Shown here piece after piece: positions 991 through 62,402 of a DNA stretch of 64,000 nt. The stretch is from Corylus avellana. Taxonomy: Eukaryota > Streptophyta > Magnoliopsida > Fagales > Betulaceae. The translations under genes were made by a program, and so were the position numbers. A model generated the notes under the pieces. That model saw only the letters and a list, made by a program, of their open reading frames with translations, had not been told where the DNA came from and searched no databases. The stretch's first letter is position 1, and every line of letters starts with the position of its first letter. The stretch spans positions 36,824,590-36,888,589 of the forward strand of contig NC_081543.1 of NCBI RefSeq assembly GCF_901000735.1, read 5' to 3'.

Positions 991-3860
991 ATGGCCAGGA
1001 ATTCGGACATGTTCAACAAGTTGACAGACTACCTTCTCTTCATCATCGTCTCTCTGTTGCCCTTCAAAGAGGCGGCAAGAACCAGCGTTCTCTCCAAGCG
1101 TTGGCGCCATGTCTGGCGCGCAACGAAGAACATTGACTTCAATGAGAGATTCTTTGTGAGAGCCGGCGAACCGGACGAAATCCAAGAGTCCCAGAGACTT
1201 TTTTTCGTCCATTTTGTCCGGCAATGGATGGAAAACTACCAAGAACCGCTTGTAGAAAACTTTCAACTCACCTTCACGAAGCCCGGAAGCTTCCGTGACG
1301 ATATGGACCGCTGCATTGCATTTGCCGTCAACCGTAGCGTGAGATTTTTAGCCGTTGATTTCTCTGACCCGACATGGGGGGAAGACGATCTCGACGACCA
1401 TGCAGCGTTGTTTGACTTGCCGTTGACCGTGTACGGACACGCAGTTCTCGAGTCTCTAAAGTTGTTCTCTTGCAGTTTTCGGATGTCTGAGTTTGTCAAC
1501 TTCGGATTGCTTAAGGATGTCTCATTGGGTTGGGTTGAATTAAGGATGTCTGCCATTGAAGCAATCTTAGTGAACTGTCCCCTGCTACAGAGTTTGAGTT
1601 TGAAGAAGTGTTGGAACATTGAGCACCTTGATATCAAGGTGCCAAATTTGCAGCTGAGAAATTTGTTCATCGACAAGTGCAAATTTCTTCAAGATTGGTA
1701 TGGGATTGAAGCACCAAATTTAAGGTTGTTCAAGTATTCTGGGGCTGTGGGGTTTTTTGAGGTTGAGATAAACAGGGAGGTTATGGAAGAGGCTGATCTT
1801 GATTTTGGGCTTGAGTTTGAGTTTGATGCAGCAGCAGGTCATATTCTCTATCAACTCCTTGAACAAATTTACCCCATCAGGATTTTGACCGTTTGCAGTT
1901 ACATGCTTCAGGTATATATCATTAATTCCTTTAACTTTTTACCAATTCAACTTCTTTTTATATATATCAGATTTTTTTTTTGGTTTTTGGTAAGCATATG
2001 GTGCCTGGTTTAACATTTGGAGTACTTTACTTGTATATATTTGTACAACATTTCTAGGCACCATGAATTCGAGTGAATTTCCTCCAAATTTTGATTTTAT
2101 GTGAAGATTGATTTCAAATGCATAAAGATCTTCTCTTGAAGGAATCAGTAATTTTGATGTGGGGGAAAAATTATAAAAATATTTTGTTGTGGGGAAAACA
2201 ATGTACTCGCTTGGTAATGCTTTTTAGATTGAGCTTTCTGTTTTTTTTTTTTTTTTGGTTGTAATGTGATATATAAAAATAAAAGCTATTTTGAGTGTTT
2301 TATATTTTGTTGTGGACAAATATTCAACATTATATATTTGAGAAAGAATAATATTGTTCACACGTATTTTAATTGATTTTTCATGTTAATTATTTTTTTT
2401 TAAAAAAAAATTTGATAGCATTTCTGAAAAAAGCTGGTTTCACTTGTTTCATGAGGTGGGCTTCTTTTGCATTAGTGTCCACCTTAAAGAGTTATACTTA
2501 TGAGTGACAATTTGTGTTCGCTTGTCATAGGTCGTGTTAAGACATACGTGAATGATGGCTATGTTTGGTAACAGACCGGGCTAGCACTGTAGCTGGAACG
2601 GTACTGTTTCAGCTACAGTGCCAGCAGCAAAAATTAATTTTTTACTTCATTTTTTTTTTAAAGCAAAGAAAAAAAAAATGAGGAGAAAGATGGGGTGGTT
2701 CCAGCCACCCCTTGGCCAAAATGGGGTGGCCGGACCACCCCATTTTTGGCCAAGGGGGTGGCTCCTGGCCTATCTGGGGTATGGGGTGGCCGAAACCACA
2801 CCTAGCCCGGACCACCCCCAAATGCACCTGATCCCTCCTTTTTTTTTTGGCCGGCCACCCCCTTGGCCATGGGGGTGGTCGAACCACCCCCAGATCGGTC
2901 AGGGGGTGGCTGGAATCACCCCATCTTTCTCCTCATTTTTTTTTTTTTNNNNNNNNNNNNNNNNNNNNNNNNNNNNNNNNNNNNNNNNNNNNNNNNNNNN
3001 NNNNNNNGCTGGCACTGTAGCTGGAACGGTACTGTTCCAGCTACAGTGCCGGCCCGGTCTGTTGCCAAACATAGCCGATATAAGTCAATCCTCACTTAAA
3101 TTTTTTTAATTAAACGGGTTAAACTCTTTTAACTTTAATTTTTCAGTTTCATGTTAAGTTGTTGTCTGCCTAAATTTCCACCCCCCATATTGAAAGAAGC
3201 CAAAGAAAAAGAAAAGTAGAAGCTTGAAAGTGGGAACTAACAACTATTCTCCTTGTCTTCACAATTTGTAGGTTATTCCCTGTGGAGATGAACCATTCAA
3301 GATGGATTTTCCCCTGAACTTAACGCACTTAACATTGAAGGCTGCTCTGCATGAACATGAATTTTTTGGAATGTGCTTCTTCCTGCGCAGTAGTCCTTGT
3401 TTGGAGACTCTCACAATCCAAATAGGCCCCGGAAGAGTGTTTCCTGTGAGTATTATTATTAGCAAGGGTTTTTCAAAAAACACATACACTTTTGCCTTGA
3501 AAGTAAAAACCCCAGGTATGATTTTTCCTTATTTTGTTTGTTTTATAGGATTACGCGCCCCCATTTCCGCTGGCGCCTGATAACTTCTGGGAGCAGAAGT
3601 TCCCCCCCTTCAACTCCTTGCCCTTCGAGTGCTTCAACACTCTTACTGTTGTGGAGGTTGAAGGCTTCAGGGGAACAAGGCATGAACTTCCCTTCCTGCG
3701 CTATTTGATCCGCTCTGGCCATGTCCTGGAACACCTACACATTACTGTTTCAAAGGAAGGTGAAGAAAACGGTGGAAATGTCCAAGCATACCATGAGAGA
3801 GCTCAAGTGCTGCAGACGTTCCAAAAAGCCTCACCAAATCTGCAGATATCCATCTATTAA
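991..3860 (+). CDS. F-box/LRR (FBD-like) protein, three exons
   Basis: Exons 991-1911, 3272-3445 and 3549-3860 join in phase 0 with GT-AG introns and give 468 residues. An F-box lies at about residues 7-50 (LTDYLLFIIVSLLPFKEAAR, then SVLSKRWRHVW). Degenerate leucine-rich repeats follow at about 180-245, and the C-terminal half resembles the FBD region of plant F-box/LRR proteins (FNTLTVVEVEGFRGTRHEL). By family, it should be the substrate-receptor subunit of an SCF ubiquitin ligase that binds a SKP1/ASK protein; the target is unknown. Intron 1 (1912-3271) holds a palindromic element and an N gap. A second copy of exons 2-3 lies 3.8 kb downstream. The longer reading through 1911 into intron 1 is not the real protein end. 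Confidence 0.85.
2557..3076. mobile_element. Foldback/MITE-type element in F-box intron 1, interrupted by N gap
   Basis: The ends are near-perfect inverted repeats of about 68 bases starting GGCTATGTTTGG(T/C)AACAG. Each arm also contains an inner palindrome, GGCACTGTAGCTGGAAC and its complement. The body is full of GGGGTGG/CCACCCC palindromes. Flanking GAT at 2554-2556 and 3077-3079 is a candidate 3 bp target duplication. The corresponding intron of the second copy (about 6865-6875) has the empty site. No transposase is visible, and 59 N lie inside at 2949-3007. TIR style and a 3 bp target are compatible with PIF/Harbinger or CACTA-like non-autonomous elements; I cannot choose. Confidence 0.75.
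2949..3007. other. Assembly gap (59 N)
   Basis: The run of N lies inside the palindromic element, next to a poly-T stretch. Strong foldback plus a homopolymer probably defeated sequencing. Confidence 0.99.
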
Positions 3861-4533
3861 AACAGAGGACCCTGCTGCTCCTATTGGCTACTAGATTTTA
3901 ATAAATGGAGCAGCCCCTATTAGCTATTTGCATAAGAGAAATTTGAAATAAGAACACAATAATCTCTGTTAATTTCTCGTAAAACTTTTGAATTTGCTGG
4001 CTTTCAAACATTTAGCCAGTTGCTTTAACTGGTCAACTTTCTATAAACAGAGGGAACCTTTTATCCTACTTCCTGTCTAAATCTTTGGTGTGAGCATTAG
4101 CATGTTTGTTTATAAATTGTTGCATGCCTTTCAAGTACATATAGACCGAATTATTCTTTGTTTTTTTCTCTTTAATTTCCTTTAGATTTATCAACAAGAT
4201 ATTTGTTCTTGTTTTTATGTTCTTATGGCATTGGGTGCCCCCTCCACTAGGAAAAGAAGATGTAAAAGCATTCTCTGATCTTTGTATTTCTCTGCACGTA
4301 AAAAGCATATGTACTGCTACAACCATTGATAGAATTAGTACTGTTAGAGGGGACAAATATCTCATTCCATTCCTTTCTTACACTGTAGAACTAGAAACTA
4401 GAATTTTTTAAAAAACATAAAAGAAAACCAGAAAATGGAGTCAATCTGCTGGGATCAAACGCATTTTTAAAATATTTTTATTTTCTTCAGCTTTGTACAC
4501 GTGAATAAGAAATCAGTGTTAAAAAAAAACACC

Positions 4534-4698
4534 TCAGAAGTCAGTGATGGGCTCTCCAGCAGTCAGATTTCTCTCTACCGTCCACGGCAAGTTAAACAGC
4601 TTTGCCATGATGAATTTGAAGATCTTGTTCACATTTATGTTGTGGGTGGCGTTCGAGAAGAACAGGGTCGCTTTCATTGCCCTTGCATATGCCCTAGC
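4534..4698 (-). pseudogene. Orphan terminal exon of SGP1-like GTPase gene
   Basis: This 165-base block, with an acceptor-like CAG immediately upstream on the minus strand and a TGA at its end, encodes 54 residues that match the last exon of the complete SGP1-like gene at 8348-8512. There are two changes (S to N in the LFFS motif, I to T three residues from the end). The frame is fully open. No other SGP1 exon accompanies it in this copy, so alone it is a fragment. It lies 3.8 kb downstream of the complete gene on the same strand and could in principle be spliced as an alternative last exon. Confidence 0.8.
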
Positions 4699-4739
4699 CT
4701 GCATGCGTGCAGAAGTAGACTCGATAAATGAATTGAATT

Positions 4740-6300
4740 ATAATTGATATATATAATTTTATATACATGTTTCGATATAATTTGAATTTGACATAAGTTA
4801 AATATAAAATTAAAATATTAGAGTTCCGTTTAACTAAGTTAGTGAGATTATACCTAAATAGTCTTATATTCATACCTTAACACGACTTAAACTCGGTACA
4901 CGAACACAAATTAACATCCCTGATTTATAATCTATCATCTCCGTAAAAGACGGAGATTTATATAAATATATTAAAATTTACCAGTCAATATATACAACCC
5001 AAGTCTAGGTCCAACAAATAAAAATCTTTTTTTTTTGTTTTTTATCTCAAAATGTTATCCTTAAATTCTATTCCAGGCTTTGACAAACATGTGGCCCCTG
5101 TGCCCTCTCTCTAACGCGGTGAGAGAATTATCTAGGATTTTGGCACATGTCCATTTTCAAAGATTGACAGAGGAAGACTTTAAAGTCCTCATAAATTATC
5201 CTTGATATTCTTCAACTTGCTGCATATGCCAGCAAGGCCCAGCAACGATATAGATTACGAGGTGAACATATTATCCCATAATATTAAAGGGGTTCTATTG
5301 TTTGGTTGACACTATTATAATGAATTCTTTCATTAACACGTGAAATATTTAATTAAAATAATTAGTAAATTGAGGAGACAGAGGTTAAACTCAAAACATC
5401 TGTTCCAAATACCATGTTAAATTATTTTTTATCTGAAAAAAAAAACAAAAACAAACAATGGTAGAAAATAGTTCAAATAGAGATCATCGATCCATGACTA
5501 CACTTATTATACATACAAACTCCCATAAGCAATCACAATGCGCTGACTCCACTTCCACTTATAATAAAAACATATCTAAAGCCAAGTGTGACTCGTGTTA
5601 GAGTTAGCCTTTAGCAAAAGAATTTGGTAGTCTTCTCCACTCTCGGAACATAACTTGAGCTGAACCTCGGCAAAGTGCGATGTCGGCGGCGTGAGAAAGA
5701 GAGGGGGAGAGCGGCAGAGTGCGACGTCGGCAACGGGTGGAGACAGAGAGCGATGTGCGAAGAGAGAGAGAGAGTGGCGAGGGGCAAGCGAAGATAGTGA
5801 GTCATCGAGAGGGAGAAAGAGGGGAAAATCAAAGAGTGATGGAGAAAGAAGAGGGGTGGGCACGGCTTGAGAGTGTGAGGAGAGCTGGAGAGGGAAAAAT
5901 GTTTTAGGTTTAGGAGGTCCTCCGTCCTTTAGTTTTTTTTTTTTTTTTAATAATTATAAACGTGTCTGGTGGGTCACTTACAGATTGATCTACCACACAC
6001 AAAATAAACGGGTTGACCCGTTTATGACCCAAACCCTTTTAGGGTAAACTCAAACTCGGTAACTTTATGTCGTGTTTGTGTCGAGTTCGTGGGTCATATC
6101 AAAATTGTCAGCCCTAGGTCCCTTCGATAAATAAACCTGAGATAAATAAAAAATACATAAAAATATAAAAAATAAAAAAATAAAAAGAAGAAAAAAAAAG
6201 AAGAAGTAGTAGATTGAAGATCTAAGCTCATGGCATCGTGCGTCACCTCCATGTAGTACCACTTGATCGCGTTGAAAGCTCATGATCAAGGCCATATCCC
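4740..6300. other. AT-rich spacer between tandem copies, dispersed repeats
   Basis: No gene is supported. Up to about 5445 it belongs to the duplicated unit. From 5450 to about 6290 it is unique within the window and contains a GA-rich block (5690-5895) with only low-complexity reading frames. Near 6005-6115 is a repeat of the 'gggttgacccgtttatgacccaa' and 'tcgtgggtcatatcaaaat' kind. Relatives of this repeat occur at 4850-4910 and 14925-15265. Confidence 0.5.
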
Positions 6301-52015: not shown

Positions 52016-52929
52016 AAAGGAAGGAGAGATATGAAAAAGAACTCTCTCTCCCTACTTCCTTCTCACACTAAACTGATTTGCTGTTTCGATGTTATGTCTA
52101 TATCTGCTATTACATGCTTTAAACAAAGAGAGGGAGGCATCAAGCATATATCACTTCCTCTCTGGTGGTAAATGTTTCATTTCAGAACTGTGAATAGGAG
52201 AAATGATTCATCTGTTACCATGGAACTTTACAGCTTACCTTTAATAGTGGAACTGGGGGTTTCTCTTCACCGGGTTGAGGATGCCACTCAAGAAGCACTT
52301 GCTTTTTGTCAATTGCTTCACAAATGTGTGGGTACATGTTCATTGCAGTCCTAGAATGGAAATCTCCACCAGCTCTAAAGGCATCCAGCATGCTCTTACA
52401 ACTCGCAAGATGCGCAAGAATCCGAAGTTCCAGCTGTAATATGAATACACAACTCAATCAACACAAGCAATTCAGTTCAACCGCTTTAGGTAGGTAGGTA
52501 ACACAACCACTTACTTGCCCATAATCTGCAACAATAAGTGAATTCCCAGGTGCGGCTATGAATGCCTGACGGATCTTAAACCGGTCCTTCTCTAAGGCAG
52601 GTAGATTCTGATTCACATAAAGTAACAACATTGTACTTGTAAGTCTATTAAATTTGCTCAGGAAAAACAAGTCTCTAAACATTTTCAAAATATGAAGTTA
52701 CAAGATATCTTTCTGTTTTATTGTTTTGTCTAAATGCAAAGGAGATTTTAAACTTGGATGGTTCACACTCATGAGATTTTAGCAATCTAGTATTCAAGCA
52801 ATTATCAGAGCTCAGTTGCAAGCATATGTGGTTTGCCATTATAGTTATAATTTATTCAATGCCATGACTACACAAATTTCATCTCTTGCCAATTTGTATT
52901 TTTATTTTAGTTGTCACATTCCAAGAAAC

Positions 52930-54527
52930 ATAGTATAACACATCTATGGTCAAAATACGAGCCCTTTTATTAGTAAATCAATTATAAGAATATTGACAAA
53001 ATATAAGAGAACCTGTAAATTTGGTCTCCTAGTTGATAAGCGCCCACTTTCTGTGTTGATATTTAACGAACAATGAATACGCCCATTACTGCCTGATCTA
53101 TTACTTCCCTGTGGTAGAAAGAAACCAACATCTTCAGCTAGTTCACACATTGTAAGCGAAAAAAACTGAAGAAAGAAGGAAGAATTGTTAGCTTTAAAAC
53201 AGTTGTCTGTGCTGACTGGTAAATTCTGGGGATTTATCTTTACCCAACACCAGATGTAAACCTCATATACGAGTACAGTATTGCTTTCAGTCAAACCAAA
53301 ATGTGCACATATGGAACCTCTGCAATTCATGATAAATGTAAATAAAAGAAACTAGAGCACAAGCTGCACATAAACAAAAGGAAAAGATGGAGAACTAAAT
53401 AGCATCTATTAGAATATATAAGATATTAATATTTTTTCTTATTAGGTATTTACCATAGTTGTCGGTCTGTATTCAGGATTTGAATACCTTTCCTAGTTCA
53501 ACTTACCTATCATATTTTCCCAATAAATAGAGCCCTGAACACAATTATAATAAACAAGCCATTCAATTAAGATAGTAGCCTTATCGGACACTTCTTACTA
53601 ATGAACTTAGGCCTCTGAGACCGAACCACTAAATCTTGTCTCTCTTTTGCTTTGGCTGTCTAAATTTGTTTTATTATAAATTTCTAATATCAGAACCACT
53701 CTTTTGTAACCTCTTATAGGGTGTTTGGAAACCGCCACTGCAGGGTGTTTATCTGAAATTGGGTACTCTTAAGTATTGTCTTGACTCAAAAACAATACCT
53801 ACAACCTCCACATCAGGGTTTGTCCCATAATTCAATTAGGATGATTCTTTTAGAACAAAAAAAATATCAATATCAAGAAAACATCAAGGTGCTCACCACC
53901 CCCTCGCAGCGTGTAGTGGAAAGACACCCTTGCGATCAACTGCATATGGTTAAATAAAAGATATAGCCACATCTGTTAAAATACACCCAGACACCCTCAC
54001 AATGCAGACGCTGTGGGAGAATAACTCATGTCTCAAACTGGGGCTGTCAAAGGATTCAAAAGGAGCATAACTTTGGCCTTCGCCAATCATACTAGTTGTA
54101 GCACCATCAGGTTCCAACAAAAAATTTTTGATAAGTAATCGAATTATCATTAAAACGTAAGGTGCCCTAGGTACACATGAAGTATACAAGAGAAAACATT
54201 TAGCTAGCTACAAGGGAAAGAAGAATAAGAAAATCATAATAACTAAGCTCCAAAGGGAAACAAATGCAGCAGTTTAAAGATAAAGAGTATAGAAACATCA
54301 GGTTCCAAGAAATGAATTTAAAAGACATAAACAAACTCATATTTGTGCATGTGCATTCGTTGAATCTAATAATTAAAACATGGAACCAATTCTCACCTCA
54401 ATCCCCTTTAACATTATTTAACATTATAAGGATCATAACAAGATAGCATCCACACAAATCCCATAGTTCAGTAGGAATTTGGATCATTAAAGCCTTGACT
54501 ACTTCCATAATGCAGTAGGCAATCACT
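52930..54527. repeat. Segment repeated at 62403-64000 (left copy)
   Basis: The match has a constant offset of 9473 with no indel seen over about 1.6 kb. I count six mismatches, all transitions and all in the first 400 bases. It contains polymerase exon 53108-53013 and the insert at 54118-54295. Confidence 0.95.
54118..54295 (-). mobile_element. SINE/LINE-tail insertion with 13 bp target duplication
   Basis: CATCAGGTTCCAA at 54105-54117 recurs at 54296-54308. The plus strand of the insert starts with an A/T tract and TTTGATAAGTAATCGAATTA, then TAAGGTGCCCTAGGTACACA. This is the reverse of a LINE-type 3' tail, so the element is on the minus strand. The same insert is present in the right copy (63591-63768), so it predates the copying. 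Confidence 0.75.
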
Positions 54528-56809
54528 ACACTGGCTACAAAATTTATCAATGATTGGCCATAGCAGAAAGACATGTTAGTAGCAATCACCTGCAAGGGGA
54601 GAATGAAGTTGGATATCAAGTGGTTAATGGAGCAAACTTCACATAAATCAGCAATGGCATGACAAGCCTCCCTCCCCATTCCATAAGCCGAATTGTCAAC
54701 GTCACTGGTTGATTTTTGTTTTTCTGAAACTTCATTTTCAGAAGCATTTTCAACATTGTCATCTAATTGCTGGTCGGAAGCCTCATCCATAAAATCATAT
54801 TCAGCAGAAACCTTTCCAGCCAGGGTCTTCAAAGCATCACCACTAACTGAGGGCCAACCAGATGCTGTGAATATGTCAGTTGGCAGCGGAGTATCAAGGA
54901 TTCTATGCAGCCTAATATTGCGAAATTTGCTAGGAGTCTTCTTGCCCTCTTCAATCACTTTATCAACATTAGGAACTTTGAAAATCCGCTCCTCGGGAAG
55001 AAACTCATTGGGTTCCTTTCTGTAATAGAAAATCACATGGTTAAAGGGCACAGAGCTTTCTTGGGAACCCATTTGCATGCAGAACCCCACCCACCCCATC
55101 ACTTGGAGTTCTTAAAGATGCTCATAAAGCCGTAAGAGTTCATCGATGGCAGCTGCACTTCCCCACCACCAAAAATAAAGAAAAATGAAAACAAATACAC
55201 CTACATAAATTATAAATAAAGTATACCTGTTTGCAATGCCACCAAAAAAGAGCTGACGTAGTTGTGCATCACGTCCCACATTCATGTACTTGGCATCAGG
55301 GCAATACCTAGACGCCCAGTTGCGAAATCTATTAGCAGCAACCACTTGCTCTGCTTTGGCTACCTTCTCCACCTTAGCGAGATACGCCCGATCAACTAGC
55401 ATTCCCTCGGTTTCCATTTTAATCAAAAGCTCACCAAACGGTTGCCAGTACTCCTTGTAGAACTCAAACATGGATTTTCCATAAACTGCCACTCCATCAA
55501 GTAGCCATGGCACCTTCGATAGTTGGCATTTCAAGCTCTCATAAAGCTCTAGTGTGCTTTTCACATCTAAGACAGAATAACAAATCCATGGTTTCCGCTC
55601 TTCTCTTTGTAGCTGTTCAACCGGAGAAATGGTCATCATTTTGCCTTCAAATCCATCTTTTTTAATTTTTCTCCTACCAAAGATGGTTTTCATTGAGACT
55701 TTACCAAACAACTTTTCTTCATGAAAAAGTTGAGCCCCACACATAACCTTTTCATTGCCGGTAAGTGCTTCAAGACAATACCCCCCCTCAGTTTGTCTCG
55801 ATGAATGCCACAACTGTGCCATATGTATTATGTCAGCATGAAAACCGGAAAGCCTAAGCCCATAGTTCTCAATAACATGGTTATCAAAGCTATAGTTGTG
55901 CCAAACCTACAGAAAGGACAAGCGAAATGTCATTTTCACGTTTGCTTCAAACTTATGGGCCATCCACAAGCTTCTCATAGTAAAAATAATATGTTAAAGA
56001 GTGGGATAGTCAAAATTGTTCAATACAATCAATGGCAATGCTATAACAAGTATATTGCAACATCTAAGGGAATTATTACTATGAGCTTGGTTCAAGGGGT
56101 TTGTTGTCAAGGATAGTAGCCATACAATTGGTGACTTGAATATATTTAAAAAAGCCTTATCCAATTGGCAGAAGTCAACGAGACCCACTTTTCCAGAAAT
56201 TTCCCTACTGGAGCAATTTCATACAAGCACCAACCTCTAAAATTTGCACCAACACGGTCATACTAGATATATTATAATAGTAATAAGGTGGTTGCCACAA
56301 GCTATTTCTCAATACTTATAATTAGCAATCATAGTTACAAAAAGGTACTGCAAATCAAGAGGACCACAGAGACATTTAAAAGAGAAATTGAAGAAGAAAA
56401 AACTTACCTTTTTGATGGATGGGTCTTCAAAGAATGGAGCAAATTCATCCAAAAGATCCCTACCACCACCATCAAGAACATCAACCCACACAATGGACTT
56501 CCCATTTCCGAGATCTGCTTCTGGTCCAGAATATATACTTAAGCATATAATTTCCCCATGATCAACAGGCGTTTCTTGTTTCACATCTATCTTTGCAACT
56601 TGTAAATATAAAATTATCACAAAGTACAACGTAGCGTGCAGAGGTAAGATTTTCAAATAGCTTACCAACCCACATCGTTAAAGTACATAGACATAGATAT
56701 GAACTACAATAGTATGTACTTCTCAATTGCATAACAACCATATATTTTCAAGTGGCTCTTCCCAAGAGCTTCTCTCTCCTCTTTCTCACTCTCTATCTCC
56801 CTCCCTCCA

Positions 56810-58857
56810 CTAGGGGTGCCACGTGAAGGCGCGTCCCGCTAGTTTTCAGTGAGGGCTTGACAGTGACCATTGTTCAGAGGGGACCAAACAGATTCAGCCG
56901 GTTTATGGAGGTGACGGTGTACTCAATGGGTGGCTAGAGAGGTCTCATTTTGATTCCAGAGGTAAGAAAAGGGTGGGGTTGGAGATTATTTGAAGGTCAA
57001 GCTTAGCAATGTTAAGCTATTCTTTGATTTCTCGGTTGGGTCCTCTACCGTGAGCGTTCGTTTGCGGGTTGATATTCCCTTTGCATTGGGGAATCTTGGC
57101 AGAGGGTAAGGTCGTACGCGGAGGTCGCAACTCATCCTGGGACCATGGCAGTGACGTGCTCAATCTCGGAGAAGCATCTTGATGTTACGCTGGACAAGAT
57201 TCAAGTTGAAGCACCCAGAAATCGAGGTCCAAGGCCTCGAGGTTCGGCTACTTCCTTGATTTGCGCCGTTGAGGGTGACGTGACTCTCCTGAATAGGAAG
57301 AAGAAAGACCTGCTTATGCTTCAGTCGTGGATAGCTCAACTAGTTTGTATCAAAGGAGAAATTGATGAGGCCCTAGTGCGAGCTTATGAAGGGTTGAAGG
57401 TTTTTGGGTTGGGACATAGAACTGGGCGGTATTAGGCCCACTGCTGGTCATAAATGCATGGAAGGATTCTTTGTGCGGGCTGGCCATTTCAGGGTTCTGA
57501 AGCGGAAGCCCATCACAAAGAGGGTTGTTTTGCTGGGCACAAAGGAGGGCCCTAGGTCCTTAGCAGGTCTTGAGTTGGATCAAGGTTGCACGATTCCTCT
57601 CGTCTCCACGAAGGCATCGTCGTCAGCAGTCAAGGTTGGTGTATTCCGCTATGAGGGGTCTAATTTGATTAGGTTAAATATGATAGATTACTCTAAGGGT
57701 CATGTCCATTTAATGTCGAGTCCGCCAATTGGCACTATGAACTTGGTGGCAAAAACTACCCAGAACACGCCTAAGCCCATGAAGTGCTATAACCATACTT
57801 ACAAGTCTATGTGGGCTTAGAATTTCGATGTGGGCATTCTTATAGGAGAGGCAGGCAGTATCACCCTTAGGGTGATGTCGTTGGTAGGCAGCCAAAGCAC
57901 GGTTCCAGGTGGGTCTTCTTGGCTTTTTCGGCGTTTGAAACTAAGGGTGTGTCGGTGCTCAATTTGGTGGAGGTCTTGGTCCCTGCCTCGACGACCTCGT
58001 TCGTTGAAGTCTAGCTTGTTGGGTCTTCTCTGGCGAGCCCTGATGATGCCAGAGTGGTCCAAAGTCTCTCTCTGTTAATATTGATACCCAGACTGCGCCG
58101 AAGGTTGCCCAAGTCCCGGCATCGAGTGCTCATGTGGGTTTTCTCCAGTGGGGTTTCTCAAGCCAAGTTCTTCTGCGGTTTGGGGCTATCCTCCTCCAGT
58201 AGCTCTCAATGTTATTAGTTTGTCACATTCTCATACCCAGAAGTATGGATTTGGTCCATCTTTGAAGATGGTGGTTAGTTTTTTTTATAGATAATCAAAG
58301 AAATTTCATTAAAAAGGCACAACGAGCCCCAAAGCATACATGAAGTATGCATAAGACACCAAATAAAAAAATCCCAAAAGACAGAAGAAACACCAAGAGC
58401 CCCACAACAGAAATGGTGGTTAGTGATGGGGAGGTTAGAGATTTTTGGGATGAGGAGGATGGAGAGTTTCCGCACCCTTTGGGTGATTTCCCCCCTGCCA
58501 CCCTTTTAGATTGGGCTTTGTCTGGGGATGAGGGGATCGAAGACTTAATACAGGATACCCCTCGGAAGGTTAAGAGTAGAAGGAAGCTTCTGAATTTGGA
58601 ATGCTCCATTACCTATGATGTGAATGGAGCATCATCTAGGCATGGGAAGGCAAGGCTCACGCTTGTTAGCGTTTGAGGCTTTTGAACTTTGTTGTCTTGT
58701 GGGTTTTGGGGTTGTGGGCCTTTTGGGTTGGTTGGGTTGTGTGTTTTGCTGTTTCTTTTGGGTTTTGGGCTTGTGAGAGCTCCCCGTGTATAAGACATGT
58801 GTACTTAGGGGCGCCTTACGCTTTTTCAATAAAGTTTTACATCACTTATCAAAAAAA
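56810..58857 (+). mobile_element. Truncated LINE with ORF1-like part, in polymerase intron
   Basis: The plus-strand frames at 57145-57435 and 57404-57820 are polar ORF1-like protein. The 3' end reads GTGTACTTAGGGGCGCC, then CTTATCAAAAAAAG, a typical plant LINE tail. No reverse-transcriptase motif is visible, so it is non-autonomous. It sits in the intron between the exons ending 58905 and starting 56598. Its 5' boundary is approximate. Confidence 0.6.
58279..58412 (-). mobile_element. Nested 134 bp LINE/SINE tail with 11 bp target duplication
   Basis: ATGGTGGTTAG at 58268-58278 is repeated at 58413-58423. The insert begins with a T run on the plus strand (reverse poly-A), then ATAGATAATCAAAG and GCACAACGAGCCCC. 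It interrupts the LINE at 56810-58857 and is therefore younger than it. Confidence 0.8.
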
Positions 58858-59283
58858 GTAACTAGAAAAATAGTATGATAAAGACAACCTTACTAGAATA
58901 ATACCTCAGTGCTGCATGAATGGACAAGATGTCTGTGCTTATTCGTTAGCATCCCGACAACCTCTTTTGCTATGGTGAGATTATCAACAATAAGAACACT
59001 GTCATAGATGCTATTAAGCCTCTCGTGAAGATCTGGCTGGAAATATGCCTCATTACTAGTGGAGGTTTTGACTAAACCATAGGCAAGTCCAGAACTTGTT
59101 TCTTTTATTTCCTCCAAGTTCCATGATGTGGATACACTGGGCTGGGCAACCTTTCGTAAATAGTCTGTTGAACATAGACCATGCCTTGACTGATCAAGGT
59201 TGAGACCATTCACATCTTTAAGTCCAGTTGTTTCTTTTATTTCCTCCAAGTTCCTTGATGTGGACACAATGGGCTGGGAAACT

Positions 59284-59335
59284 TTTTTTTTTTTTTTTTT
59301 TTTTTGAAGGGGAACTTTTTTTTTTTTTTAATAAC
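59284..59335 (-). mobile_element. Poly(A)-only retro-insertion in a polymerase exon
   Basis: CACAATGGGCTGGGAAACT at 59265-59283 is duplicated at 59336-59354. Between them lie 52 bases that are almost wholly T on the plus strand, broken only by GAAGGGGAAC and ending TAATAAC. Net gain is 71 bases, which is not a multiple of three. The frame upstream (to 59680) and downstream (to 58905) therefore differ. It looks like target-primed insertion of little more than an mRNA tail. Confidence 0.8.
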
Positions 59336-59823
59336 CACAATGGGCTGGGAAACTATTCTTACATCGTCTGTTGAACATAGACCCCGCCCACCATTCACAT
59401 CTTTCACAGCTATATTTTTGTCTCCTCCACATTTTAGTTCAGCGGAAGCTGGGACAGAAGGAATAGCAGAAGCCAGCTTTGAAGCTGAAACAGATGCAGC
59501 ATGATGAATAGGAGCCATAACATGCCGTCCAACATTTGTAGAAAACATGCTTGCACAACTACTCGTTCTATGTGGTGGATTACTACCATTTTTCACAGCT
59601 TCCCTGATACTTGTCTGCCTTTCACTCTGTTCTTTCCGTTCCCTAAAGACACAAGGCTCAGTACTTTCATCAACAGTCACAACAGCACTAGGTCTTTCAG
59701 GATTACTACCCCGAAACTCCTGAACTGGAGGTGAACTAGAATTTCTTGAAACCTTTTCCCCTTCTTTATCTACATTTCGAGGGTCAATAATTGGATTTTT
59801 TAAGATACTTCCATTAGAATTAT

Positions 59824-60151
59824 TGTAACAGTTCTGTTCTAATAACAGCTGTTATGAATGCCAATATGGAAAGGAAAGAGAGAAAGAATAGAAAGAATGA
59901 ATGAATTGACTATTGAACTAGGTATTTCGAGGATACCTAAACCTCCTTGAGTATTCGAGGACTCCTCCTCCAAGTTCACAATGAACAATTATCTCAAAAG
60001 CTACTGATTACATTCTCATTTAGACTATTTATACATCCTCTCCTAACTAACACTTCAACTAACTCTCAACTAACTAAACTGTATTATAACCTTCCCAACT
60101 AACTAAACTATATTATAACAGTACCTATTACATCTACTTTAACCCATTACA
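59824..60151 (-). repeat. 3' LTR (328 bp)
   Basis: The plus-strand sequence runs from TGTAACAG to CCATTACA, giving TG...CA ends with TGTAA/TTACA inverted termini. Its first 152 bases equal those of the other LTR. The right edge is set by the adjoining polypurine tract and is inferred. Confidence 0.75.
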
Positions 60152-60346
60152 TTACCCGCTCCTTTAAAACACCTTGCCCACAAGGTGTGCAATTGAAAGA
60201 AAGCTGCCTATTACAAGTGAATACAAAGAATATTGAAATACAAATGCAGCCTAGGGTCAAAATGCAGGCCAAAAGCCCAAACCATTGTCTGATATTTGTT
60301 TGCACTTCCCCACCTTCGCACTATTCAGCTTTCCAAGCAAGCCAGC

Positions 60347-62116
60347 TCACGTGAACACACACTGCCCAAGTCTGACTTCCACAATGCCCAATTCCACCAT
60401 TTGCAACACAACCGTGACAGCACACACATCTCTTCTCACATTTTCCTTTTTTTTTCTTTTTTTTTTTTCTTTCTTAGTCTGTCGCACACTAGCACCTTCT
60501 GTTGTATGCCATTGAAAGAAAGCTGCCAAAGAAACACAATGCAGCTCAAGGCCCAATACAGTCCAAAGCCTAAACCTTCCCACATTCTTTTTCTTCCAGC
60601 GCCATCGATGCCTCAAGCCAACCAGATACTTCAGCAACTCAAAATGCTGAGTTGCCCAAGAGATTGATGAATGGACACGCTCACGACAATAGTTTGCAAC
60701 CCGGTCACCGATTAGCATTTGAACAGGAATCTTAAGAAAACGAGGTACCACATCAACTGCATCTTCCATCTCGGGTCTTCTTCCCCACATAGATGTAAAT
60801 CCCCAAAGAGGCACATAATCCACCTCAAAAACACTGCGGCTAAATGTTCCATTCACCGCTCTTTCCAGAGGCAACTGAAGAAGAGCTGCAGATGGCTTTG
60901 GATCAGAGTCATCGCCCATCTCTTCCTCAAGACTCACAGCCACAGCAACAGGATCACTCACAATCTTTGTCTCATCATTTGGTTCCACTGGATTGCCGGC
61001 CTTAGCAACAACATCAACACCGCATAAACTCCGCCCAGTTTCTATGGAACTCTGAGTTCCTACATCAGAATAAGCCTCAAGAAGCAAGATTTCCTCTCCA
61101 CACAAACTATTGTTCTCACTCGTCACTGAAAGAGAACAAGAGCAATCAAGAATCTGATCACCCTCCAATGACAATGAATCATCTTCCTCTCTTCCCGAGG
61201 CTACTATCACATCATCCCCAGAATTTCTGGCAGCATTATTAGAAGGAAGTACATTCCATTGGTGTTTAGTACTCTTTCTGAAATTGAACATATAATCCTC
61301 TTGGATTTTGGCTAAAGAATAAGCATCCACCAAAGTCCTAGGTTTGAACATCTTTACTGCCAATCTAATTTCATCTTTTAACCCCCCCATAAAATAACTC
61401 AGTTTATGTGCTTCAGGCCAATCAGCCACCTTATTGGATAAAACTTCAAACTGTTTTTTATATTCTTCCAAAGATCCTTCTTGTTTCAACTTTGACAATG
61501 TTTCCATAGGATTATCATAAGACCCCATACCAAATCTAGTCTGTAATGCTCTAGCAAAATCATCCCAAGTAGCAAAAGAATTTGATTTATGCAATTCTTG
61601 AAACCAAATTAAGGCTGTACCTTCCATATGAAAAGAAGAAATCTTCAACCTTTGACAATCTGGTGTAGAGTAGTGATCAAAGAACTGCTCAGCCTTGTAA
61701 CACCAATTCAATGGATCCTCCCCATCAAATTTAGGAAACTCCAACCGAATGGACTTAGTGTGAAATCCATCTCCTGCCTGAAACCCTGCACCATTTGTTG
61801 CATAAATCCTTCCTTTTGAGGTTGAACCAAAATTGGCCTCCATAGTGTCAAAAGAGGAACTTTTATCTCTTTGCTCTGGTGCCCTCTGCGATTCCTGAAT
61901 GCCTCTCATCACTTGTGTCAACTGTTCACTCAAGAAAGCAAACTGGTCATCTTGCTTTTTCTCAAAACGATCTTGTCTTGCACTTATGAAAGCAAACTGA
62001 TCATCTTGCTTCTTTTCCAGTCTTGCATTCCTCTCTTCAATATCATCCTTCAACTGCTTAAACTCCTTCCTGAACTGCACCAAATCCGCATTTTGCCCCA
62101 TTGACCTAGTTTCCAT
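60347..62116 (-). CDS. Retrotransposon gag fused to a clade-A PP2C fragment
   Basis: A single uninterrupted 589-codon frame starts 16 bases after the primer site. Residues 1-75 are a coiled-coil-like N-terminus (RLEKKQDDQFAF twice). Residues about 120-280 are Ty3/Gypsy gag (RLEFPKFDGEDPLNWCYKAE, then GMGSYDNPMETLSKLKQ). Residues about 297-483 match the N-terminal and first catalytic portion of HAB1/ABI1-type PP2C (AVSLEEEMGDDSDPKPSA, then FEVDYVPLWGFTSMWGRRPE, then VANYCRER). The PP2C DGHGG metal-binding block is missing, so phosphatase activity is not expected. The last about 100 residues are basic, end in a K/R run and resemble nothing known to me. The fusion could be a chimeric Gag; expression is unknown. 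Confidence 0.85.
   Translation of the reverse strand: METRSMGQNADLVQFRKEFKQLKDDIEERNARLEKKQDDQFAFISARQDRFEKKQDDQFAFLSEQLTQVMRGIQESQRAPEQRDKSSSFDTMEANFGSTSKGRIYATNGAGFQAGDGFHTKSIRLEFPKFDGEDPLNWCYKAEQFFDHYSTPDCQRLKISSFHMEGTALIWFQELHKSNSFATWDDFARALQTRFGMGSYDNPMETLSKLKQEGSLEEYKKQFEVLSNKVADWPEAHKLSYFMGGLKDEIRLAVKMFKPRTLVDAYSLAKIQEDYMFNFRKSTKHQWNVLPSNNAARNSGDDVIVASGREEDDSLSLEGDQILDCSCSLSVTSENNSLCGEEILLLEAYSDVGTQSSIETGRSLCGVDVVAKAGNPVEPNDETKIVSDPVAVAVSLEEEMGDDSDPKPSAALLQLPLERAVNGTFSRSVFEVDYVPLWGFTSMWGRRPEMEDAVDVVPRFLKIPVQMLIGDRVANYCRERVHSSISWATQHFELLKYLVGLRHRWRWKKKNVGRFRLWTVLGLELHCVSLAAFFQWHTTEGASVRQTKKEKKKRKKKENVRRDVCAVTVVLQMVELGIVEVRLGQCVFT
60662..61228 (-). other. Captured PP2C (HAB1-like) segment inside the retrotransposon
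   Basis: Codons about 297-485 of the fusion ORF. Recognisable landmarks are SVTSENNSLCGEE, GRSLCGVDVVAKA, LLQLPLERAVNGTFSRSVFE, GRRPEMEDAV, PRFLKIPVQMLIGDR and VANYCRERVHS. In the host family about 27 residues containing DGHGG separate GDR from VANYCR; here they are joined directly. Boundaries of the capture are approximate, and the match is from memory of clade-A PP2C sequences. Confidence 0.75.
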
Positions 62117-62131
62117 GAAAAGAAAACAAAT

Positions 62132-62144
62132 GGCTCTGATACCA
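62132..62144 (-). promoter_or_regulatory. Primer-binding site, initiator-Met tRNA type
   Basis: The minus strand reads TGGTATCAGAGCC two bases after the 5' LTR edge. This is the standard plant retrotransposon primer site complementary to the 3' end of initiator tRNA-Met. Confidence 0.85.
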
Positions 62145-62146
62145 CT

Positions 62147-62298
62147 TGTAACAGTTCTGTTCTAATAACAGCTGTTATGAATGCCAATATGGAAAGGAAA
62201 GAGAGAAAGAATAGAAAGAATGAATGAATTGACTATTGAACTAGGTATTTCGAGGATACCTAAACCTCCTTGAGTATTCGAGGACTCCTCCTCCAAGT
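62147..62298 (-). repeat. 5' LTR, partial (cut by N gap)
   Basis: 152 bases identical to 59824-59975. The remaining about 176 bases expected of the LTR are hidden by the 100-N gap, and the sequence after the gap is unrelated to the LTR. Confidence 0.85.
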
Positions 62299-62398
62299 NN
62301 NNNNNNNNNNNNNNNNNNNNNNNNNNNNNNNNNNNNNNNNNNNNNNNNNNNNNNNNNNNNNNNNNNNNNNNNNNNNNNNNNNNNNNNNNNNNNNNNNN
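62299..62398. other. Assembly gap (100 N)
   Basis: A standard-length scaffold gap. It lies within the 5' LTR on the left and at the start of a segment copied from 52930 on the right. Confidence 0.99.
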
Positions 62399-62402
62399 TA
62401 GG

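Follow-up and report, generated by a model that had tools for sequence, protein, structure and literature searches.

Bs1 of maize is a non-autonomous LTR retrotransposon in which gag is joined to spliced pieces of host genes, and TR-GAGs are short non-autonomous LTR elements of plants that retain gag only. Host-gene capture by plant LTR elements is presented as established in the accessible text of several reports (PMC13317346, PMC2774510, PMC3726574, PMC7264820). In these texts, Bs1 is described as holding partial host genes in three fragments (PMC13317346), and genome-wide surveys count 425 intact maize LTR elements with host gene fragments (PMC2774510), as well as 672 rice and 1343 sorghum genes captured by such elements (PMC3726574), the rice pieces being reported as mostly free of purifying selection (PMC2774510, PMC3726574). 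LTR elements also recombine with one another. BARE-2 and Veju are described as recombinant elements and ascribed to abnormal template switching, the exchanged sequence being of element or unknown origin (PMC13317346, PMC1950507).

The element described here lies in a 64,000-nucleotide stretch of the Corylus avellana genome (NC_081543.1, positions 36,824,590 to 36,888,589), hereafter the window. It is a young non-autonomous Ty3/Gypsy LTR retrotransposon, gag-only, in which gag is fused to a fragment of a host protein phosphatase 2C (PP2C). It falls among the TR-GAGs, but differs from them in that a host-gene cassette is fused in frame after gag. Like Bs1 it carries an intron-less host piece; here, however, the piece comes from a clade-A PP2C, and the genome still shows the parent gene, siblings of the element, an allele without it and another LTR family with the cassette. 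The surveys differ in covering many captures; unlike in BARE-2 and Veju, a captured host-gene cassette has apparently been exchanged too. The best overall explanation, to which we assign a probability of about 0.85, is a non-autonomous Ty3/Gypsy derivative whose pol, bar the last codons, was replaced by a cassette opening with a reverse-transcribed piece of spliced host clade-A PP2C mRNA. This explanation builds on the LTR, primer binding site (PBS) and polypurine tract (PPT) anatomy, the intron-less piece and its junction, the parent gene, the siblings, the empty site and the neutrality of the PP2C piece.

A first-pass annotation of the window, made from the sequence letters, had taken a gag-only element with an abscisic acid (ABA)-pathway phosphatase piece to be undescribed. 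As to kind this does not stand, since many LTR elements with pieces of host genes are on record. As to an LTR element with a PP2C, neither such an element nor a host cassette moved between LTR families stood out among the open-access titles and abstract openings listed, and the word ‘phosphatase’ is absent from the main text of the rice and sorghum survey (PMC3726574). Host-gene transduction is known from Bs1, and the present case is a well-resolved variant with an unusual added step, not an ABA regulator.

The coordinates of the window copy are collected in Table 1. The proposed gag-PP2C frame is indeed a single one, open and starting with ATG, and lies on the minus strand, which the first-pass annotation had not given. 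Its gag part matches Retrotrans_gag (PF03732, residues 159-247, E 1.7e-14) and Ty3_capsid (PF19259, residues 145-275, E 1.3e-13), and no PP2C model was among the Pfam matches listed for the frame. The Ty3 type of this gag is further indicated by a relative, L004, in which RNase H is followed by integrase. We take the element to be related to chromovirus-type elements. The LTRs form a near-identical pair with TG...CA ends, accompanied by a PPT-like stretch and a PBS that we take to be of the initiator tRNA-Met type. The 5' LTR is complete in two sibling copies (L009 and L010), and the 3' LTR of the window is identical along its entire length to the 5' LTR of L009. The 152 comparable bases (62147-62298) match the end of the 3' LTR exactly, as had been claimed. 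The internal region measures 1995 bp and holds no pol except a few terminal codons; without its own protease, reverse transcriptase and integrase, the element is non-autonomous. The earlier description of a gag-only element is thus upheld by the LTR, PBS and PPT anatomy, the Pfam gag matches and this short internal region, and its supposed youth by the LTR identity and the survival of an empty site.

Table 1. Features of the window copy and its surroundings (positions within the window).
Feature	Position	Strand	Basis or remark
Exons of a probable DNA-polymerase-I-like gene	52218-59830	-	Weak Pfam matches and one structure match
Target site duplication, ATAAT on the minus strand, on the element's 3' side	59819..59823	.	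Empty-site comparison
3' LTR, 328 bp, TG...CA	59824..60151	-	Sequence
PPT-like AAAGGAGCGGG, directly before the 3' LTR	60155..60165	-	Sequence
Pol-end remnant, codons HLVGKVF-stop	60164..60187	-	Pol-bearing relative ends HLVGKVL (L025 frame ...YPHLVGKVL)
Tail	60188..60670	-	First ~330 bp common to the L012 element, remainder not
Start of captured PP2C exon 2 (VANYCRERVH), lacking intron 1	60671..60698	-	31-bp match, 96.8% to parent exon 2; GT-AG junction
Captured PP2C exon 1 segment, 523 bp	60699..61221	-	95.0% to C6 parent gene; lacks the final 81 nt of exon 1, where DGHGG lies
Gag part of fusion frame, residues ~1-298	61223..62116	-	Pfam; by sliding identity an apparent mosaic of L010-like and L004-like source
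Gag-PP2C-tail frame, 589 codons, starts ATG	60347..62116	-	Open reading frame
PBS TGGTATCAGAGC	62133..62144	-	Sequence
5' LTR, last 152 bp only	62147..62298	-	Remainder falls in assembly gap
Assembly gap, 100 N	62299..62398	.	Followed by an overlapping contig that nearly repeats the window from 52930 on

The host origin of the phosphatase piece rests on both protein and nucleotide similarity. Against PDB chains, the frame matches HAB1 (Protein phosphatase 2C 16; E 2e-13), with its best stretch at residues 423-472 and 50 of the 331 residues of the HAB1 core chain aligned; a Carpinus PP2C, the second-ranked match in the protein database, shows 73% identity over 34% of the query. The parent gene, L013 at C6:7802713, matches the element without gaps in exon 1. 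The proposed HAB1/ABI1-type clade-A similarity therefore holds, as does its extent: about 190 residues had been claimed and about 183 were found, 173 from exon 1 and some 10 from exon 2. A PP2C from Shorea laevis (P0006, on a 46.8-kb contig) is 70% identical to the window sequence, compared with 52% and 50% for the Rubroshorea proteins P0068 and P0080, and lies nearer to the Carpinus and window sequences than these two do; by its sequence it may be a contamination of the dipterocarp assembly.

Relative to the parent, the element lacks 202 nt, made up of 81 nt from the end of exon 1 plus the 121-nt intron. In the element the junction reads GACCGG/GTTGCAAAC, and the piece removed from the gene starts with GTACTT and ends with TTCAG. 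This fits a GT...AG piece delimited by the normal acceptor and a cryptic donor inside exon 1, intron 1 being absent exactly at its acceptor. Because such a removal uses the normal acceptor, the source of the capture was most likely spliced PP2C mRNA. Alternatively, a microhomology deletion and a separate loss of the intron may have produced the same junction; this would agree with the 3-nt ambiguity (GGT) at the GT-AG junction and with the absence of the cryptic junction from host PP2Cs in the 217 related proteins listed (one of the protein searches listed 120 of 385 matches). The missing 81 nt encode FFGVYDGHGG, so that the DGHGG motif stretch of the catalytic domain and nearly everything after it are gone, and the phosphatase piece is presumably dead.

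The search for siblings covered 369.9 Mb in 12 contigs. A protein search of the genome gave at least 77 matches, and 74 of 706 candidates were scored, the counts being lower bounds. Matches to the PP2C part comprise the window copy, four other loci (L009, L010, L011 and L012) and the parent, hence at least five element copies. The expectation of sibling elements sharing the fusion was confirmed by L009 and L010, which both carry gag-PP2C. L009 (C10:4644580-4646346) encodes a protein 100% identical to the window frame and differs from the window copy solely by a 1-nt deletion near the end of the 3' LTR; as assembled, these two copies are not fully independent. L010 (C3:17595713) is complete, with the target site duplication GCGGG, LTRs identical at 325 of 328 positions and the same gag-PP2C junction, and L011 (C10:17867049) is truncated at its 5' end. 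The copies differ in age. A scan of viral contigs returned one pattern match and no relative.

The fifth copy belongs to a different element family. L012 (C9:13652188) holds an element at its positions 3404-5482 (G000:C9), with one LTR of about 386 bp near 3404-3789 and one of about 397 bp near 5086-5482; of 386 positions compared between them, 3 are mismatched, and 11 further columns are gaps. A PBS-like start is present, and the target site duplication ACCAA was read by eye from the flanks. Its LTR shows no meaningful similarity to that of the window element (best match 16 bp), and its gag-like stretch, for which Pfam returned no match to gag, differs by eye from the window gag. Its PP2C piece nonetheless has the same exon junction as the window copy, and its tail matches the window tail at 87% over about 334 bp. 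When four copies (window, L010, L011 and L012) were aligned with the parent, five changes common to the elements were evident: GAGATT>GAGATG, GCAGTT>GCAGCT, ACATCT>ACATTT, TGC>TGG and CCT>CCC. Of the four changes that alter an amino acid, I>M, V>A and C>W can be polarised, as P0002 and P0121 carry the parent residue; for the fourth, S>F, neither of these proteins has F. The fifth nucleotide change is silent, and no direction was assigned to it. Shared derived changes of this kind point to one capture.

The two families retain unequal parts of the cassette. More of exon 2 survives in L012, together with an additional stretch (VKPFDYEAARKEE...) missing from the window copy, which itself retains more of exon 1. 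Since each keeps parts that the other lacks, neither can descend directly from the other, and both must go back to a shared ancestral cassette. An RRP6-like origin of the VKPFDYEAARKEE stretch was rejected, as solved structures gave two insignificant matches (E 0.83 and 0.96). The WCFDPG motif also occurs in the element-like locus L022 on contig C7, so part of this stretch may be element sequence. These comparisons indicate one capture, followed probably by exchange of the cassette between element families. More broadly, we find it rather likely that the spliced PP2C piece and its tail, captured once, circulate among LTR families by template switching, with the carrier gag refreshed from pol-bearing relatives.

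The main rival to such passage between families is that each family independently took up one host transcript that was chimeric beforehand, made for instance from a PP2C mRNA retrocopy in the genome that had been joined to other sequence. The unequal cassette lengths at both ends in L012 and the window element would suit this, as would two further proteins, P0031 and P0126 (from JGI contigs), in which an SMW-type PP2C piece and the joint VKVKPF(D/N)YEAARKEE sit in yet other surroundings. We nevertheless consider it unlikely, as the PP2C-part matches listed (parent, element copies and weaker matches, with the best candidates scored) include no free-standing chimeric locus. Taken by themselves, P0031 and P0126, whose PP2C piece is of the same lineage, may represent an element that combines parts of two host genes in the manner of Bs1. 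P0031 (586 aa) continues into joined ferrochelatase exons, which are separate in the gene of the present genome.

Exchange between elements, as in the single-capture reading favoured here, is also suggested by gag. Overall, the window gag is 88-93% identical at the nucleotide level to that of the relatives L004-L008, among which L004 has a 1592-codon frame and, in its pol piece, RNase H and integrase domains, with a chromodomain match under its cut-off. Identity was followed in 60-column steps (L007 was aligned but not tabulated, and one step offered too few positions for L005 and L006). Counted from the LTR, nt ~170 to ~600 of the window gag share 94-100% identity with L004, L005, L006 and L008 and 70-92% with L010, while nt ~650 to ~883 share 94-98% with L010 and 82-90% with L004, L005, L006 and L008; the next step spans the PP2C junction. 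At the 5' side the border of the patch is weak, because the first steps are near-equal: over the 120 bases next to the LTR, L010 (97 and 92%) is just 2-5 points closer, approximately, than L004 (91 and 90%), and in the third step, at 94% for both, it is not closer. From this pattern the window gag is judged to be a mosaic with pol-bearing relatives. DNA-level recombination or gene conversion could instead have produced the mosaic. The LTRs of L004-L008 are unlike that of the window, with only a weak 62-column match (76%) in three of the five. The terminal pol codons of the window element and of a relative are nearly the same, and at the gag-PP2C switch the string TGGGG is common to the relatives' gag and the PP2C gene, giving a 5' microhomology.

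A route by RNA would run as follows. Reverse transcription would have proceeded inside virus-like particles of a pol-bearing relative, where the enzyme may have left the element RNA for a PP2C mRNA packaged alongside, inside the TGGGG microhomology for the 5' switch, and then returned. Further switches would have transferred the cassette between element families, and others would have swapped part of gag with a pol-bearing relative. Proteins supplied in trans by relatives of the L004 kind would mobilise the element. These patterns are most simply read as co-packaging with RNAs of pol-bearing relatives and switching of the template to them.

Selection is not evident in the captured segment. Over 173 codons, the window piece differs from the parent by 26 nt, 20 nonsynonymous and 6 synonymous (dN 0.052, dS 0.052, dN/dS 1.01). 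When 26 random changes were simulated under neutrality with three transition biases, 10000 trials kept an open frame in 41, 48 and 55% of cases. Openness is thus retained by chance in about half of cases, and together with the dN/dS of 1.01 this indicates no protein function; by these measures the PP2C piece evolves neutrally. The whole frame is open in the window and L009 copies, L010 has longest frames of 215 and 351 codons, and L011 has one stop within its matched part. The first-pass annotation had stressed that the host segment stayed open, and these figures do not support reading a meaning into it. Selection as the cause of the open frame was likewise rejected, as simulated neutral change often leaves it open.

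Two functional proposals bear on the parent gene and its pathway. The element might act as a source of small RNAs that lower expression of the parent PP2C. Exact matches with the parent locus occur at 153 element positions for 21-mers and 124 for 24-mers, so cross-matching siRNAs are possible in principle, and small RNAs on LTR-captured genes are reported in the accessible text for rice and sorghum (PMC3726574). Such a sequence match alone is, however, expected of any recent capture, and we regard this role as improbable. Still less credible is an expressed gag-PP2C fusion that modulates ABA signalling through PYL/SnRK2 binding or as a dominant-negative. The 589-codon frame is open in two near-identical copies and the motif GRRPEMEDA is retained, but DGHGG and the catalytic domain bar about 10 residues are missing, the HAB1 alignment is confined to the short stretch given above, and the neutral substitution pattern, the chance openness and the broken frame of L010 all argue against it. 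The lock tryptophan that contacts PYL lies outside the captured part as well. The suggested action on SnRK2/PYL partners accordingly finds no backing, and the fusion protein most likely neither acts as a phosphatase nor takes part in the ABA pathway.

The insertion itself can be dated relative to its site. Beyond the assembly gap, the sequence from window position 62399 onwards (L014) repeats window 52930-59823 at 98.8%, with 53 mismatches and 28 gaps in 6897 columns, and contains the empty site without the element: GATCAGGATAATTCTAATGG. On this empty allele, the left flank (from L009) and the right flank (from the window) overlap by exactly 5 bp, the ATAAT of the target site duplication. The L009 left flank maps to the insertion site at 96.7% (6 mismatches and 30 gaps in 1080 columns); on its right side, the C10 copy is flanked by a sequence other than that in the window. 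As the left flank both matches the site and overlaps the right flank by ATAAT, it was most likely put on C10 by a repeat-mediated mis-join; L009 2165-5872 (G000:C10) would then combine the left flank of the window insertion with the right flank of another insertion, a probable assembly mis-join. The two versions of the site are probably haplotypes, their mismatches (0.8%) being near the heterozygosity of ~0.92% given for C. mandshurica in the accessible text of PMC7917096. They may instead be a true tandem duplication. In either case, the empty site in one version makes the insertion younger than the split of the two.

The insertion site lies in an open stretch, ...FYSRDQDN/SNGSILKNP..., which gave no Pfam match and which we read as coding. 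Exons further downstream on the same strand match DNA polymerase A and 3'-5' exonuclease, both below Pfam cut-offs; the exon at 52218-52457 matches solved DNA polymerase I chains (E 7.7e-05), and two other exons had no match among solved structures. By these similarities, the element probably interrupts the N-terminal part of a DNA-polymerase-I-like gene, probably a plant organellar polymerase. The polymerase-like exons appear out of order because an overlapping haplotig (or a tandem duplication) was scaffolded in tandem. That the whole picture is an artefact of chimeric contigs with no real fusion is extremely unlikely: the element does adjoin a gap, the contig past it is a near-repeat and the C10 copy carries a left flank belonging to the window insertion, but L010 and L011 share gag-PP2C or PP2C-tail junctions in different flanks and the C10 copy has its own 1-nt 3' LTR deletion and right flank, which confines any artefact to the joining of flanks. 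An assembly error inside the element, which the first-pass annotation had named as a hazard for the frame, was rejected, since the second copy on C10 is 100% identical in protein and L010 has the gag-PP2C junction elsewhere.

One genome thus retains the parent gene, a splice-defined junction, at least five copies, two families sharing the cassette, likely mobilisers and an empty allele, which makes the order of events readable and testable by genotyping. That order would run from mRNA capture, through transfer between families and exchange of gag, to a recent insertion into a gene. The case also illustrates that even a striking, uninterrupted fusion of gag with host sequence can evolve neutrally. 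If the single capture with later passage between families is true, a captured host sequence would be a module common to the retroelement community of one plant genome.
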